From assembly GCA_001184205.1 (NCBI GenBank), contig LBMP01000004.1:62001-126000 (forward strand): a stretch of DNA of 64,000 bases, written 5' to 3'. The position numbers were made by a program, and so were the translations under genes. Positions 11,372-17,832 of the stretch are shown here, one piece after another (position 1 is the first letter of the stretch; the number at the start of each line of letters is the position of its first letter). The DNA comes from Desulfocarbo indianensis. Its GTDB lineage: Bacteria > Desulfobacterota > Desulfarculia > Desulfarculales > Desulfarculaceae. The notes under the pieces were generated by a model. It saw only the letters and a program-made list of their open reading frames with translations. It did not search any database and was not told where the DNA came from.

Positions 11372-12301
11372 CTATACCTGGGGCCGCGGCAGGCACTTGG
11401 CCTGCTCCAGGATCTCGGGCACCTTGTGCTCCCACTCGATGGCCATCAAATGGATGCCGGCCACGCCCTCGATCTCGCGCATCTCCTCGATCTGCTCGCA
11501 GAGGAACTTGATGCCCTCCTCGGCCTGCTTCTCCTTGGGAGCGCTGGCGATGCGTTTGACCACATCGTCGGGCACGTCCATGCCCGGCACCTTGGTGGCC
11601 ATGTACTTGGCCATGCCCGCGCTCTTGAGCGGGGTCACCCCGGCCAGGATGTAGGTCTTCTCGTGCAGGCCCTTGTCCACGGCCATTTTCATATAATCGC
11701 GGAATTTTTGCATGTTGTAAATGCACTGGGTCTGGATGAAATCCGCGCCGGCGGCCACTTTCTTGGCCAGGCGCAGCACCCTTAGCTCAAAGGGATCGCC
11801 AAAGGGGTTGGCCGCCGCGCCGATGAACATCTTGGGCGGGCGCTTGATTTCGGCGCCGCCCTGGAACTTGCCGTCGTCCATCATGCCGCGCACCATCTGG
11901 ATGAGCTGGATGGAGTCCAGGTCGTGCACGTTGGAGGCCATGGGGTGGTCGCCGAAGCTGGGATGGTCGCCCGAAAGGCACAGCATGGTGTTCAGGCCCA
12001 TGGCGTAGGCGCCCAGAATGTCGGACTGCATGGCGATGCGGTTGCGGTCGCGGCACACCATCTGATAGTTGGGCTCCAGGCCCATAGACTTGCAGATCAG
12101 GGAAGCCGCCCAGGAAGACATGCGCACCATGGCGGTCTGACAGTCGGTGATGTTCACCGCGTCCACCTTGCCCACCAGGTGGGCCGCCTTTTCGCGCACC
12201 GCCTCGGGGTCGGACCCCCGGGGAGGGCCAACCTCGCCGGTCACCGCGAAATGGCCGGCCCGCAGCACTTTTTCCAGGTTGCTATCGGTCTTAAGCTCCA
12301 C
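11372..12301 (-). CDS. metF: Methylenetetrahydrofolate reductase, MetF family
   Basis: 309 residues, a TIM-barrel flavoprotein. MetF reduces methylene-tetrahydrofolate to methyl-tetrahydrofolate, here most likely for the methyl branch of the Wood-Ljungdahl pathway. Residues matching the E. coli active site are present: Glu23 in TGEVGPPRG, Asp112 in LCLSGDHP and Gln192 in DFIQTQC. CRDRNRIAMQSDILGA is the FAD-binding stretch. It follows the metV-like gene after 54 nt. In acetogens with the same gene pair, MetF and MetV form a complex and electrons come from HdrA/MvhD-type modules rather than directly from NADH, which fits the neighbours here. The next gene downstream is a receiver, 129 nt away. 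Confidence 0.92.
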   Translation of the reverse strand: MELKTDSNLEKVLRAGHFAVTGEVGPPRGSDPEAVREKAAHLVGKVDAVNITDCQTAMVRMSSWAASLICKSMGLEPNYQMVCRDRNRIAMQSDILGAYAMGLNTMLCLSGDHPSFGDHPMASNVHDLDSIQLIQMVRGMMDDGKFQGGAEIKRPPKMFIGAAANPFGDPFELRVLRLAKKVAAGADFIQTQCIYNMQKFRDYMKMAVDKGLHEKTYILAGVTPLKSAGMAKYMATKVPGMDVPDDVVKRIASAPKEKQAEEGIKFLCEQIEEMREIEGVAGIHLMAIEWEHKVPEILEQAKCLPRPQV

Positions 12302-12355: not shown

Positions 12356-13024
12356 CTAGGCCAACAAATCCTCGCGCACGATCTTGCGCGGGCCGCCGTC
12401 GCGGGCGGCGCGCCAATCCTTGGCCGGCATTATGCGCTCGTAAAGGTCGGTGCGGCCCAGCGCCTTCAGGCGGTCCCAGATGAGCTGCCAGGCGCAGTCC
12501 ACGTTGGGATCGATCTCGCACTTGCCGCCCGAGCTGCCGCCGCAAGGGCCGTTGAAGATGCGCTTGGAGCAGCGCGCCACCGGACAGATGCCGCCGGTGA
12601 AGGCCAGCACGCAGTCGCCGCAGCCCTGACAGCGCTCGGCCCACACGCCCTGGCGCTCGCTGGCGCCCATGAACTTGGTGTTCACCATGGGGTAGACCGG
12701 CTTGTCCTTGTAGCGCCCCGCTATGGTTTGCACCCCGCAACCGCAGGCCATGGAGCACACCGCGTCGTATTGCTGGATGGTGCGCGCCAGCTCTTCCACG
12801 TATTCGGGATCGCATTGGCGCTCCAGGGTGAGTTCGTCGATCTCCACCTTCTGGCCTTGTTTGAGGAAAGCCATGGAAAGGGCGGAGGCCAAGATGCCCA
12901 CCTCCTTGCGGCCGCCGGCGTAGCACACCGTGACGCATTCGTTGCAGCCCAACAGAAGAATCTTCTTGTAGGGCTTGACGTACTCCATGATCTCTTCGAT
13001 CGGTTTCCGTTCCGCTGTAATCAT
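12356..13024 (-). CDS. metV: MetV-like zinc/Fe-S partner of methylenetetrahydrofolate reductase
   Basis: 222 residues of the MetV family (methylene-THF reductase C-terminal-type domain). It is Cys-rich: LLLGCNECVTVCYAGG near the N-terminus, CSMACGCGVQTIAG in the middle, and RCQGCGDCVLAF, GICPVARC, NGPCGG and KCEIDPNVDC in the C-terminal part, enough for a zinc site and Fe-S clusters. MetV is the obligate small subunit of MetF in acetogens such as Moorella and passes electrons to the MetF flavin. The gene lies directly before metF. A 345-nt gap separates it from mvhD upstream, so it may have its own promoter. Confidence 0.88.
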   Translation of the reverse strand: MITAERKPIEEIMEYVKPYKKILLLGCNECVTVCYAGGRKEVGILASALSMAFLKQGQKVEIDELTLERQCDPEYVEELARTIQQYDAVCSMACGCGVQTIAGRYKDKPVYPMVNTKFMGASERQGVWAERCQGCGDCVLAFTGGICPVARCSKRIFNGPCGGSSGGKCEIDPNVDCAWQLIWDRLKALGRTDLYERIMPAKDWRAARDGGPRKIVREDLLA

Positions 13025-13369: not shown

Positions 13370-13798
13370 TTATGCCGCCTTTTTGGCGCCCGCCTTGATG
13401 GGGTTGGGCCCCAGTTGGCGGATTTTCTCGGTGAACAGGGCGGCCTCCTCGGCGAATTTCTTGCCTTGGCCGGCGGTCATGAAAACCATGTGAGCCCTGT
13501 CGCCGCCCACGCCGATGCTGTCCAAGAGCTTTTTAACGTAGCCCACCCGCTTTTCGGCGCGCAGGTTGCCGTTCTTGAAGTGGCAATCGCCTTTGATGCA
13601 GCCGGCCACCAGCACGCCGTCGGCGCCTTTTTGCAGGGCGCGCATGAGGTGCAGGGTGTCCACCTTGCCGGTGCAGGGCACCTTTACTATCTTCACGTTG
13701 GCCGGATAGGTCAGGCGTTGGGTGCCGGCCATGTCCGCCGCAGTGTAGGCGCAATAGTGACAAGCGAAAGCCACGATGATGGGCTCGAACTCGGCCAT
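13370..13798 (-). CDS. mvhD: MvhD/FlpD-type [2Fe-2S] electron-transfer subunit
   Basis: 142 residues. The MvhD family links HdrA to hydrogenase, formate dehydrogenase or other electron sources through a [2Fe-2S] cluster. The five conserved Cys are present: CHYC, VPCTGK and GCIKGDCH, followed by the family stretch GNLRAEKRV. A short Lys/Ala tail (KAGAKKAA) extends the C-terminus. The ATG at 13798 shares one base with the hdrA stop (TGATG), so the two are translated together. No hydrogenase large subunit is nearby; the electron partner must be MetFV or something encoded elsewhere. Confidence 0.92.
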   Translation of the reverse strand: MAEFEPIIVAFACHYCAYTAADMAGTQRLTYPANVKIVKVPCTGKVDTLHLMRALQKGADGVLVAGCIKGDCHFKNGNLRAEKRVGYVKKLLDSIGVGGDRAHMVFMTAGQGKKFAEEAALFTEKIRQLGPNPIKAGAKKAA

Positions 13799-16700
13799 CA
13801 CAGGACTCCTTCCAGCAAGGCGTCGGTGCGTCCCATGATCTGATCGTCCTGGTAGCCTTGCAATTGAATCGCCTTGGCCGGGCACTCGGCAGCGCAGACG
13901 CCGCAGCCTTGGCACTTGGCGGGGTCTATCTGGGAGTAGCCGTCGGCGTTGATAAAGGGGACCTCGAAGGGGCAGGCCCGCACGCAGACCAGACAGGCGG
14001 CGCACATGTCGCCCTGCACCCTGGCCACGCCGCCTTCCACGGCCAGGCTTTCCCGGGCCAGGAGGGTGAGCGCGCGTCCGGCCGCGGCCAAGCCCTGCAC
14101 CTGGGCCTCGTTGAGGCTCTTGGGGGCCAGGACCGAGCCGGCCAGGAACAGGCCGGGAATGGGGCTGTCCACCGGTTTCAGTTTCACATGATCTTCCATC
14201 AGGTAGCCGGAAGGCGTGCGCTGCAGGCGGAAAATCTCGGCAAGCTCCTCGATTTCCTCGTCGGGCGCGATCTGGGGCGTGGAGAGCACCAGGGCGCTGG
14301 GCGCCACCACCAGCTTGCGCTCCAGAATCTTGTCGGTGAAGCGCACCCAAAGCTGGCCGTCTTCCTGATAGGCCTCGGGCGGATCATCGCCGCTGAAGCG
14401 CACGAAAAGCACGCCCTGCTCGCGGGCCTTGCGGTAGGCCTCCTCGGCCACGTAGGGCATGCGCATGTCGCGGTAGAGCACGTAGATCTGCGCCTCGGGC
14501 TTGAGTTCCTTGAGCCACAGGGCGTTCTTGACCGCCGAGCGGCAGCAGATGCGTCCGCAGGAGGGGTTGGCGTCGTTGCGCGAGCCCACGCACTGGATCA
14601 TGACCACGGTTTCCAGGGCGGCGTCGGAGCCGTCGCCCTTGGCCAGGAGCTTTTCCATCTCCAACTGGGTCAAGACCTTGGGGTCTTGGCCGTAGAGGAA
14701 CTCGCTGGGCTTGTATTCCTTGGCGCCGGTGGCCAGGATGGTGACCCCGTGGTTGATCTGCTGGTAGTACATGCCGGGGCCGGACTGCACGCCGGTGACG
14801 AAGGCGCCCACCTGGCCGTCGTGATCCACCACCAGGGCGTCGCTGATGACCGTGATGCGCTCGTTGGTCTCGACCTTGGCGATCATGGCCTCCACCGCCG
14901 GCCGCACCGGAGAGCCGTCCAGGCTGCGCTCCAGGTTGCGGGCCATGCCGCCCAGCTCCTTGCCGCGCTCGACGATGGTCACCTGCCCCAGGCCCAGCTC
15001 GGCCAGGGCCAGGGCGGCGCTCATGCCGGCCACGCCGCCGCCCACCACCAGGGCGTCGTGATTCAGGGGCTCGTGATGGGTGAAGATGGGCCGGGCCTTT
15101 TTGACCCCGCCGATGGCCATGCGGATCAAATCCTTGGCCTTGGCGGTGGCCACCGCGTTATCGGGATGCACCCAGGCGTCCTGCTCCAGGATGTTGGCCA
15201 TCTCCAGGTAGCCGGGGTTCAGGCCCGCCCGACGGATGGTGTTGGCGAAAAGCACGCCCTGGCCGCGGGGGCTGGAGCCGGCCACGACCACCCGGTTGAT
15301 GCCTTTTTCCTTGATGGCCTCCACCATGCGGTCCAGACAGGCGTTCTGGCTGTCGGCGCTGAGCTCCTCGACGTGGGCCACGCCCTTGATGCCGCTTACG
15401 TATTGCAGCACCTGATCGAAATCCACCACCTTTTTGGTGTTGCCGCCGAAGTCGGCCAGGAACACGCCCACCTTGGGCTCATCCTCGGCCACGTCGCGCT
15501 CGGCCGGCAGGGCCTGCTCAAAGGGGGCCACCTTGGGCGGGGCCAGGTTGAGGCTGGCCTGCATGGCCGCCGCCGAGGCCTGCATGATGCTGTCGGGGAT
15601 GTCCCTGGGGCCCAGGGCCATGCCGCAGGCGTAGACGCCGGGGCGGCTGGTGCTCACCGGGGCGAAATCGCTGGCCGCCACGAACTGGTAGGGGTCCAGG
15701 TCGATGCCCAGGGCCTGGGCCTGGGCCTGGGCGGTGGTGGGCGCGCAGAAGCCGGTGGCCAAGACCACCATGTCCAGCTTGGCCTTGGAGGCCTTGCCCT
15801 CCTCGGAGAGGTATTCCAGGTTCAGGTCCTTGTTCTCGGCGTCCCAGGTGACGGTGTGGGGACGGCAGCGCACGAAATTGACGCCCAGCTCATGCTTGAT
15901 GCGCTGGTAATACTGCTCGTAATCCTTGCCCATGGGACGCATGTCCATGAAGAATATGGTGGCGTCCAGGTCGTCGGCGAAATGCTCCTTGGCCCAGGCG
16001 GCTTCTTTCATGGCGAACATGCAGCAGATGCTGGAGCAGTAGAGCTTGCCCGGCTCCTTGGTGGTGCGGCTGCCCACGCACTGAATCCAGCCGATGCGCT
16101 GGGGCCGGCGGCCGTCGCTGGGCCGGTTGAAGGAGCCCAGGGTGGGGCCGGAAGCCGAAAGGATGCGCTCGAACTCCAGGCTGGTGACCACGTCGGGGAA
16201 TTTGCCGTAGCCCCAAAGCTCCTGCATGGGGGTGGGGTCGAAAAGCTCGGCTCCGGTGGCCACCACCACCGCGCCCACTTCCACCGCGTTATCCTGGGGG
16301 CCCTGATCCAGCTTGATGGCGCCGGTGGGGCAGCACTTGGTCCAGGAATCGTCGCCGGTGAGTTTTGATTTGTCGATGCTGTAGGCCATGGGCACGGCCT
16401 GGGGATAGCGCATGCAGGTGGGCGAGCGGTGGTCCAGGCCGGGGGTGAAGCGCACCGCGCCCTCCGGGGCGGCCTTGAGACACTCGCCGCAGGCGGTACA
16501 GAGATCGAGATCAATGTAGCGCGGCTCGCTCTTCAGCTTGGCCGTGAAAGCCCCGGCCTCACCCTCCAGGGCGGTCAAGGTGGTCAGGGGAAGGACCTCG
16601 ATATCCAGCTCGGAGCCGCTCTTGGCCAATTCCGGCGAAAGGAAGCAGATTTGGCAGTCGTTGGTGGGGAACTGGCGGTCCAGGAGCGGCAGGAAGCCGC

Positions 16701-16836
16701 CCAGAGCCGGCGAGCGGTCTATCACGTAGACCTTGCGGCCGGCTTCGGCCAAATCCAAGGAGGCCTTGATGCCGGCGATGCCGCCGCCGATCACCAATAC
16801 CGAGTTGGATGTGGCATTAACGCTTTTATCTGACAT
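13798..16836 (-). CDS. hdrA: Large HdrA-like flavin/Fe-S protein with two FAD domains
   Basis: 1,012 residues. HdrA proteins carry FAD and Fe-S clusters and perform flavin-based electron bifurcation. Layout: a first FAD domain (VLVIGGGIAGIKASLDLA, residues 13-31) with CVGSR/CSSICCMF; a ferredoxin-like insert (110-175); a linker resembling an MvhD fold (PKVGVFLADFGGN, about 460-570); a second FAD domain (VVGGGVAGMSAALALAELG, about 615) with a second CVGSR and ICCRSAV; and a C-terminal 2[4Fe-4S] ferredoxin with both CxxCxxCxxxCP motifs complete. In the insert, motif 1 keeps Cys113, 116 and 119 but has Ala123, and motif 2 has Leu159, Asp162 and Trp165 and keeps only Cys169, so one cluster should bind and the other should not. 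No HdrB or HdrC genes are near. It sits 62 nt after the metF-like gene. Confidence 0.93.
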   Translation of the reverse strand: MSDKSVNATSNSVLVIGGGIAGIKASLDLAEAGRKVYVIDRSPALGGFLPLLDRQFPTNDCQICFLSPELAKSGSELDIEVLPLTTLTALEGEAGAFTAKLKSEPRYIDLDLCTACGECLKAAPEGAVRFTPGLDHRSPTCMRYPQAVPMAYSIDKSKLTGDDSWTKCCPTGAIKLDQGPQDNAVEVGAVVVATGAELFDPTPMQELWGYGKFPDVVTSLEFERILSASGPTLGSFNRPSDGRRPQRIGWIQCVGSRTTKEPGKLYCSSICCMFAMKEAAWAKEHFADDLDATIFFMDMRPMGKDYEQYYQRIKHELGVNFVRCRPHTVTWDAENKDLNLEYLSEEGKASKAKLDMVVLATGFCAPTTAQAQAQALGIDLDPYQFVAASDFAPVSTSRPGVYACGMALGPRDIPDSIMQASAAAMQASLNLAPPKVAPFEQALPAERDVAEDEPKVGVFLADFGGNTKKVVDFDQVLQYVSGIKGVAHVEELSADSQNACLDRMVEAIKEKGINRVVVAGSSPRGQGVLFANTIRRAGLNPGYLEMANILEQDAWVHPDNAVATAKAKDLIRMAIGGVKKARPIFTHHEPLNHDALVVGGGVAGMSAALALAELGLGQVTIVERGKELGGMARNLERSLDGSPVRPAVEAMIAKVETNERITVISDALVVDHDGQVGAFVTGVQSGPGMYYQQINHGVTILATGAKEYKPSEFLYGQDPKVLTQLEMEKLLAKGDGSDAALETVVMIQCVGSRNDANPSCGRICCRSAVKNALWLKELKPEAQIYVLYRDMRMPYVAEEAYRKAREQGVLFVRFSGDDPPEAYQEDGQLWVRFTDKILERKLVVAPSALVLSTPQIAPDEEIEELAEIFRLQRTPSGYLMEDHVKLKPVDSPIPGLFLAGSVLAPKSLNEAQVQGLAAAGRALTLLARESLAVEGGVARVQGDMCAACLVCVRACPFEVPFINADGYSQIDPAKCQGCGVCAAECPAKAIQLQGYQDDQIMGRTDALLEGVL

Positions 16837-16898: not shown

Positions 16899-17771
16899 CT
16901 ATAAACCGGCCTCGTCCAGAATCTCGGGCAGGCGGTTTTCCCAGCCGGTGGTGACCAGAAGCGCTCCGCCACAGATTTTTTTGAGCCCCTTCACGGTTTC
17001 GGCCGCGATCTTGACGCACTCGGCCGGGCGGTCGCTGGCGGTGCGGATGCGGCGGATCAGGTCCTCGCTCACCTCAACGCCCTTGAGATTCTGGTTGAGG
17101 TAGCGGGCCATGCCCACGCTCTTGAGCAGGAGAACCGAGCCGACCACCGGAGCGCCCAGGTCGCCGGCTTTCTCCAAGAAGCCGCCAAAGGCGTCCAGGT
17201 CGAACACCGGGGGCGAAACCAGGAATTGGGCTCCCTTGTCCACCGCGGCCTTGGCCTCGCCGATGCGCTGGGCAGCCTCGGCCTGGTCTTGCCAGGAGTC
17301 GATGCGCGCGCCCAGACAGAAGCTCGGCGCGCCCTTCAGGGGCTTGGCGCCCAGGTCCTTGCCGCTCATCAGGGCGGCGGCGGCGGCGATGAACCCCTTG
17401 GGGTCCAAATCGTTCACCGGTTTGGCCTCCAGGTTGTCGCCCATCTCCACGGGTTCGCCGGCCACGGCCATCACCGCGGGCAATCCCAGGATGTGCGCGC
17501 CCAGGAGGTCGGACTGCAAGGCCAGGCGGTTGCGGTCGCGACAGGAGAACTGAACGATGGGCTCCAGGCCCTGCTCCTTGAGCAGCACCGCGCCGGCCAG
17601 AGCCGAAAGGCGCATCACCGCGTAGCCCATGTCGGGCACCAGAACCGCGGTGACCCGGCCCTTGAGATGCCGGGCGTTGGCCACGAAATCGGAAACATCC
17701 ACGCCCTTGGGAGTTTCCATTTCGGCTATGATGGCGAATTGCTTGGCTTTCAGCGTGTCGGTCAAGGCCAT
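16899..17771 (-). CDS. MetF-like paralogue with altered folate-site residues
   Basis: 290 residues, MetF fold (FSCRDRNRLALQSDLLGAHILG is the FAD-binding stretch shared with the other MetF in this window). Glu17 is kept, but the Asp that follows Gly in true MetF is Glu105 (VAGEPVE) and the folate-binding TQ pair is Ser185-Pro186 (LVSPPVFD). These changes argue that it either uses another substrate or has a structural or electron-transfer role beside HdrA. The ATG at 17771 has GGAAGGA upstream and gives a normal N-terminus. It is the first gene of the hdrA-mvhD run and lies behind a possible transcription-attenuating hairpin. The enzyme name MetF should not be applied without a test. Confidence 0.8.
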   Translation of the reverse strand: MALTDTLKAKQFAIIAEMETPKGVDVSDFVANARHLKGRVTAVLVPDMGYAVMRLSALAGAVLLKEQGLEPIVQFSCRDRNRLALQSDLLGAHILGLPAVMAVAGEPVEMGDNLEAKPVNDLDPKGFIAAAAALMSGKDLGAKPLKGAPSFCLGARIDSWQDQAEAAQRIGEAKAAVDKGAQFLVSPPVFDLDAFGGFLEKAGDLGAPVVGSVLLLKSVGMARYLNQNLKGVEVSEDLIRRIRTASDRPAECVKIAAETVKGLKKICGGALLVTTGWENRLPEILDEAGL

Positions 17772-17832
17772 GGGAAATCCTTCCCCGCTTAGGTGTCCAT
17801 CCAGGAGGCACACCGGAATCGGCTGCGTGGGT

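Follow-up and report, generated by a model that had tools for sequence, protein, structure and literature searches.

The HdrA of Desulfocarbo indianensis, a member of the Desulfarculaceae, a family of sulfate reducers, carries an inserted ferredoxin domain that has lost all four cysteine ligands of its cluster II and none of those of cluster I. The gene belongs to a five-gene operon in the window (the whole stretch of 64,000 nucleotides analysed here), and the insert is quite probably a one-cluster ferredoxin, its cluster II pocket filled by other residues, within a MetF-HdrA-MvhD-MetVF complex that was pared down step by step. The gene and the domains of its product are as follows.

13798..16836, minus strand: hdrA, encoding a fused double HdrA of 1012 amino acids
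15547..16812, minus strand: TrxR-like half 1 (residues 9-430), which holds the insert; E223/K277 bifurcation signature, HA4-type Cys253/267/271/272, Cys61/Cys64
16303..16518, minus strand: inserted ferredoxin domain (residues about 107-178); C113/C116/C119/C169 kept, A123, L159, D162 and W165 in place of the cluster II ligands, clade-specific C141
15085..15501, minus strand: HdrA N-terminal-like domain (residues 446-584); cluster ligands gone (A461, F463, S496, S521)
14047..15063, minus strand: TrxR-like half 2 (residues 592-930), without insert; Cys749/760/764/765, E728/K770
13861..14025, minus strand: C-terminal 2[4Fe-4S] ferredoxin (residues 938-992); eight Cys kept

The protein is recognized as a fused double HdrA because three of its segments align with the solved archaeal HdrA 8rvu (E 5.8e-147), namely, residues 9-429, which correspond to the TrxR-like domain with the inserted ferredoxin, residues 446-584, which correspond to the HdrA N-terminal domain, and residues 857-1008, which correspond to the C-terminal part. 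A Foldseek search with the AlphaFold2 model (mean pLDDT of 83, with the loops 49-75 and 132-150 below 50) likewise places HdrA structures at the top (4.8e-49). Membership in the HdrA family can further be gleaned from the homology of the TrxR-like FAD domain, the HA4-type Cys253/267/271/272 and the complete set of eight cysteines in the C-terminal ferredoxin (945, 948, 951, 955, 975, 978, 981 and 985), which the first-pass annotation had reported and which are all read in the sequence.

In 2[4Fe-4S] ferredoxins, cluster I is held by the first three cysteines of motif one and the fourth cysteine of motif two, and cluster II by the reverse set. The corresponding codons of the insert are listed below.

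16498-16500, minus strand: C113, codon TGT
16489-16491, minus strand: C116, codon TGC
16480-16482, minus strand: C119, codon TGT
16468-16470, minus strand: A123, codon GCC
16360-16362, minus strand: L159, codon CTC
16351-16353, minus strand: D162, codon GAC
16342-16344, minus strand: W165, codon TGG
16330-16332, minus strand: C169, codon TGC

Both the alignment with 8rvu and the MAFFT alignment with about 85 homologues put A123, L159, D162 and W165 in the four columns of the missing cysteines, in agreement with the residues given by the first-pass annotation. Thus, the archaeal form of the insert, with ligands for two [4Fe-4S] clusters, is not found in this protein: four of the eight ligands are replaced and, by the ligand rule, these are the entire cluster II set, with cluster I untouched. 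Sequencing error or a pseudogene can be dismissed because the reading frame is intact and the same state is found in the genomes of two further genera of the family, including that of the isolate Dethiosulfatarculus sandiegensis (L009/L039).

The HdrA orthologues, as distributed among Desulfobacterota loci, fall into one clade, with full support, that splits into two arms, one of 13 Desulfarculaceae (arm D, with two sequences cut by contig ends) and the other of 24 other Desulfobacterota (arm F); 47 outgroup HdrAs were aligned with them. All four cluster II cysteines are gone in three arm D members, the window protein, L009 and L012, with A, L/V, D and W as the replacements, and all eight insert cysteines are retained in the other ten, the nearest relatives, with 61-66% identity. 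Arm F has lost three cluster II ligands in all 24 members (F at 123, L or V at 165 and no fixed residue at 162), with the fourth, Cys159, left as an orphan in 20. The expectation, raised in the first-pass annotation, that the four losses would always occur together is therefore not borne out. None of the 37 clade members has lost a cluster I cysteine, and all 47 outgroup HdrAs have the full eight. Scattered, independent cysteine losses, the pattern named beforehand as speaking against a coherent change, are not seen among the aligned homologues. If four of eight cysteines were lost at random, one whole ligand set would go in only 2/70 of the cases (simple arithmetic), and chance becomes even less likely because the second arm, too, has lost cluster II ligands only.

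Nor does the insert evolve as a decaying domain. For the insert versus the remainder of half 1, the mean pairwise identity is 73.7 versus 72.7% among the three arm D losers, 75.5 versus 73.8% among the ten keepers, and 71.2 versus 64.1% in arm F, so that constraint on the one-cluster insert is normal or stronger, with no relaxation. With the cluster I cysteines invariant throughout the clade (37 of 37) and the insert conserved, random decay is rejected, and the original description of the loss as coherent for cluster II holds.

The cluster II state requires a minimum of two changes on the tree. A single clade of all losers that excludes the ten keepers is rejected (AU test, p 2.65e-53); a clade of the three arm D losers is neither rejected nor established (p 0.15 for HdrA less the insert, p 0.22 for the five-gene operon), and a clade of the keepers is not rejected in the tree test. 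Most simply, the tree is explained by two losses, and cluster II was most likely lost at least twice; that arms D and F lost it in separate events is indicated by the different replacement residues (A, L/V, D, W versus F, mostly C, variable, L/V). A single loss at the base of the clade, with cluster II later restored in ten Desulfarculaceae (through gene conversion from a paralogue, for instance), has the same minimum of two changes, and several eight-Cys paralogues are indeed present in the genomes. This scenario is, nevertheless, improbable because several cysteines, three or four of them, would have to return in register; furthermore, the inserts of the keepers retain the clade-specific FTPGLD and PTCxRYPQ and lack the extra motif 2 residues found in most of the family paralogues.

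The insert is not the only iron-sulfur site affected. Cysteines are present at positions 461, 463, 496 and 521 of the N-terminal-like domain in arm F and in every outgroup HdrA of the alignment. All 13 arm D members have lost them, save for Cys461 in L009, through changes from CDCG to xDWG or xDFG and from GCSP to GYSP or similar (15274-15456 of the window); in the window HdrA, the four positions are occupied by A, F, S and S, in place of the ligands of the archaeal form. In archaeal HdrA, according to a survey of ANME HdrAs (PMC9012536), a cluster is bound jointly by cysteines of the N-terminal domain and by Cys197 from the second protomer, and Cys197 aligns with Cys64 of the window protein, which is invariant. 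Given these cysteine states, the arm D keepers lack the N-terminal-domain site, arm F lacks cluster II of the insert, and the window protein lacks both.

Cys61 and Cys64 are invariant where the N-terminal-like domain ligands have gone, and Cys141 (16414-16416, in PTCxRYP) is invariant in both arms of the clade and absent outside it, so that a second cluster might be bound by other ligands, namely, Cys141, Cys168, Asp162 or Cys61/Cys64. The L009 insert, however, has no other spare cysteine, and Cys141 is not a replacement ligand because the members with all eight ligands have it too; such alternative ligation is highly improbable.

The paralogous HdrAs of the same genome show peculiarities of their own. 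Three of these (L003, L004 and L005), along with many relatives, have one in-frame TGA at the Cys64 position, which probably encodes selenocysteine; selenocysteine-containing HdrAs have been reported for Desulfobacterium autotrophicum (PMC2702500). The window HdrA has a cysteine at position 64, with no TGA. Two HdrL-like paralogues, L006 and L008 (contig C279), apparently carry ∼450-500 additional residues around query residues 157-172, within motif 2 of the ferredoxin insert, and resemble the NfnB/GltD-bearing HdrAs of ANME-1 and Moorella.

The other genes of the operon are the following.

16899..17813, minus strand: metF2, a divergent second member of the MTHFR family, which opens the operon and is conserved with it
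13370..13798, minus strand: mvhD, Pfam FlpD (PF02662), five Cys; its start overlaps the hdrA stop by one base
12356..13024, minus strand: metV, Pfam PF12225 (methylene-tetrahydrofolate reductase C terminal), 15 conserved Cys
11372..12301, minus strand: metF1, methylene-THF reductase (PF02219)

The gene order metF2-hdrA-mvhD-metV-metF1 is common to the clade loci inspected, except that metF2 was not detected in L082 and L084. The presence of metF, metV, mvhD and hdrA in one operon is a feature shared with the MetFV-HdrABC-MvhD (Met) complex, the complex itself being predicted from the genes. No hdrB or hdrC was found among the operon genes of the window or the clade loci inspected; an hdrBC encoded at some other locus of the genome might still take part. 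Four outgroup loci (L122, L123, L125 and L126), with eight-Cys inserts, have HdrB/HdrC-like ORFs, recognized by eye from their Cys-rich motifs rather than by a profile search, between metF2 and hdrA. In two other loci, L121 and L127, the five genes stand in the same order without hdrBC, and the encoded HdrA has all eight insert cysteines, which suggests that hdrBC was lost first and the clusters later.

Two simple causes of the cluster II loss were considered. Linkage to metV is ruled out as the cause because metV-linked outgroup HdrAs keep all eight cysteines, and an automatic consequence of the absence of hdrBC is unsupported given the intact inserts of L121 and L127. The cysteines of MetV and MvhD do not differ between cluster II keepers and losers within the family, so that MetV is not yet indicated as a partner of the insert. 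Arm F MvhD (L079-L089) has a double cysteine, FCCHYC, where Desulfarculaceae have FACxYC.

According to the route proposed for archaeal HdrA, the low-potential electron passes from FAD to the shuttle cluster HA3, then to the insert clusters HA5 and HA6 and on to ferredoxin, with the insert serving as the docking site of FmdF or MvhB (PMC6019823, PMC12350162). The flavin site of half 1 in the window protein is intact: E223/K277, the equivalents of E356/K409 of M. thermolithotrophicus, a pair that has been described as distinguishing the HdrA flavins that bifurcate (PMC9430772), are invariant in all aligned homologues; in half 2, the corresponding residues are E728/K770, at a position that varies elsewhere. 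With this signature preserved, the ferredoxin chemistry could be unchanged with one cluster. In the favored explanation, Cys113/116/119/169 would bind a [4Fe-4S] cluster I, with the cluster II pocket occupied by other residues, and the stripping would have started with an operon devoid of hdrBC, continued with the loss of cluster II from the ferredoxin port in arm F and some Desulfarculaceae, and included the loss of the N-terminal-domain cluster in all Desulfarculaceae. With cluster I as a one-cluster port, the archaeal chain from HA3 through HA5/HA6 to ferredoxin would be one hop shorter here or would meet a different partner, so that the electron route probably differs from that of archaeal HdrA. 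The remaining cluster may trade electrons with a docked partner, possibly MetV, or with soluble ferredoxin. Clusters have also been predicted for MetV (PMC9430772), a candidate for such a partner.

The one-cluster insert might, alternatively, be an ordinary ferredoxin port, in which cluster I alone accepts electrons from the shuttle cluster and reduces soluble ferredoxin, cluster II is dispensable and bifurcation proceeds unchanged. Single-cluster ferredoxins are good carriers, the E223/K277 signature is invariant, the insert shows no less conservation than the remainder of the half, and the eight-Cys relatives in the same operon suggest the same reaction with either form. This possibility can be entertained only tentatively, given that the N-terminal-domain cluster is gone as well and hdrBC is absent from the operon, which implies that more than one route is altered, and that with one relay fewer the electron should have to cover a greater distance in at least one hop. 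At the opposite extreme, the insert would be a structural remnant that carries no current, its cluster I, if built, holding the fold or anchoring a partner. The loss of two sites on the low-potential side of the window protein and the reported lack of the insert in the MetVF-linked HdrA of Sporomusa ovata (PMC9430772) fit such a remnant, but it is unlikely because the four cluster I cysteines, invariant in the 37 clade members and all outgroups, would be needless for mere structure. Finally, and speculatively, a methylene-THF reductase complex of these Desulfobacterota may have made HdrA, otherwise a three-way bifurcator, into another kind of electron hub, without hdrBC in the operon, with a one-cluster port that meets MetV directly and a bifurcating flavin that serves MetF/MetV (perhaps MetF2), and with neither a heterodisulfide branch nor a two-cluster ferredoxin exit; this far-reaching change is doubtful.

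The window HdrA resembles the archaeal HdrA of the HdrABC-MvhAGD and Elp-Hdr complexes (5odc, 8rvu) in its TrxR-like FAD domain with an inserted ferredoxin, the HA4-type C-x13-C-x3-CC, the MvhD partner and the C-terminal 2[4Fe-4S] ferredoxin. It differs from these in being a fused double HdrA, encoded in an operon without hdrBC, and in lacking one insert cluster and the N-terminal-domain cluster. With the MetFV-HdrABC-MvhD complex of Moorella thermoacetica and HdrCBA-MvhD-MetVF of S. ovata, it shares the two TrxR-like halves, the second without an inserted ferredoxin, and the link to MvhD, MetV and MetF (PMC9430772, PMC6085437). Those complexes, however, have HdrB and HdrC, and the window operon has a second MetF; furthermore, a GltD module is reported as an addition to Moorella HdrA and the inserted ferredoxin as absent from that of S. 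ovata (PMC9430772), whereas the window insert stays, with one cluster. An HdrA adjoining metF has been reported in syntrophic sulfate reducers (PMC10553843).

Like the window protein, the ANME HdrA groups include fused or tandem HdrAs that keep the FAD residues and vary in the Fe-S cysteines; in the accessible part of that survey (PMC9012536), the variation stressed for these archaeal proteins concerns Cys197, the N-terminal domain and the C-terminal ferredoxin, with no description of cluster-by-cluster loss in the insert. Neither the cluster II pattern nor its recurrence nor the eight-Cys keepers were found in the freely readable HdrA literature. Variable Fe-S cysteines in HdrA are thus already on record (PMC9012536), and the loss of cluster II alone from the insert is, as far as these sources go, an apparently new pattern. 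Nature has, in this clade, run an experiment on the iron-sulfur clusters that are dispensable to a bifurcating HdrA: relatives with 61-70% identity in the same operon differ by exactly one cluster, and the sister arm differs by a second. Comparison of keepers and losers would directly test the need for a two-cluster insert in ferredoxin reduction and would bear on how MetVF-linked HdrA works, an unsettled matter for acetogens and sulfate reducers alike. A parallel is offered by the single-cluster [4Fe-4S] ferredoxins that derive from 2[4Fe-4S] ferredoxins, with the cluster I ligands kept and those of cluster II lost; these proteins are free-standing carriers, whereas the window insert is a domain within a flavoprotein.
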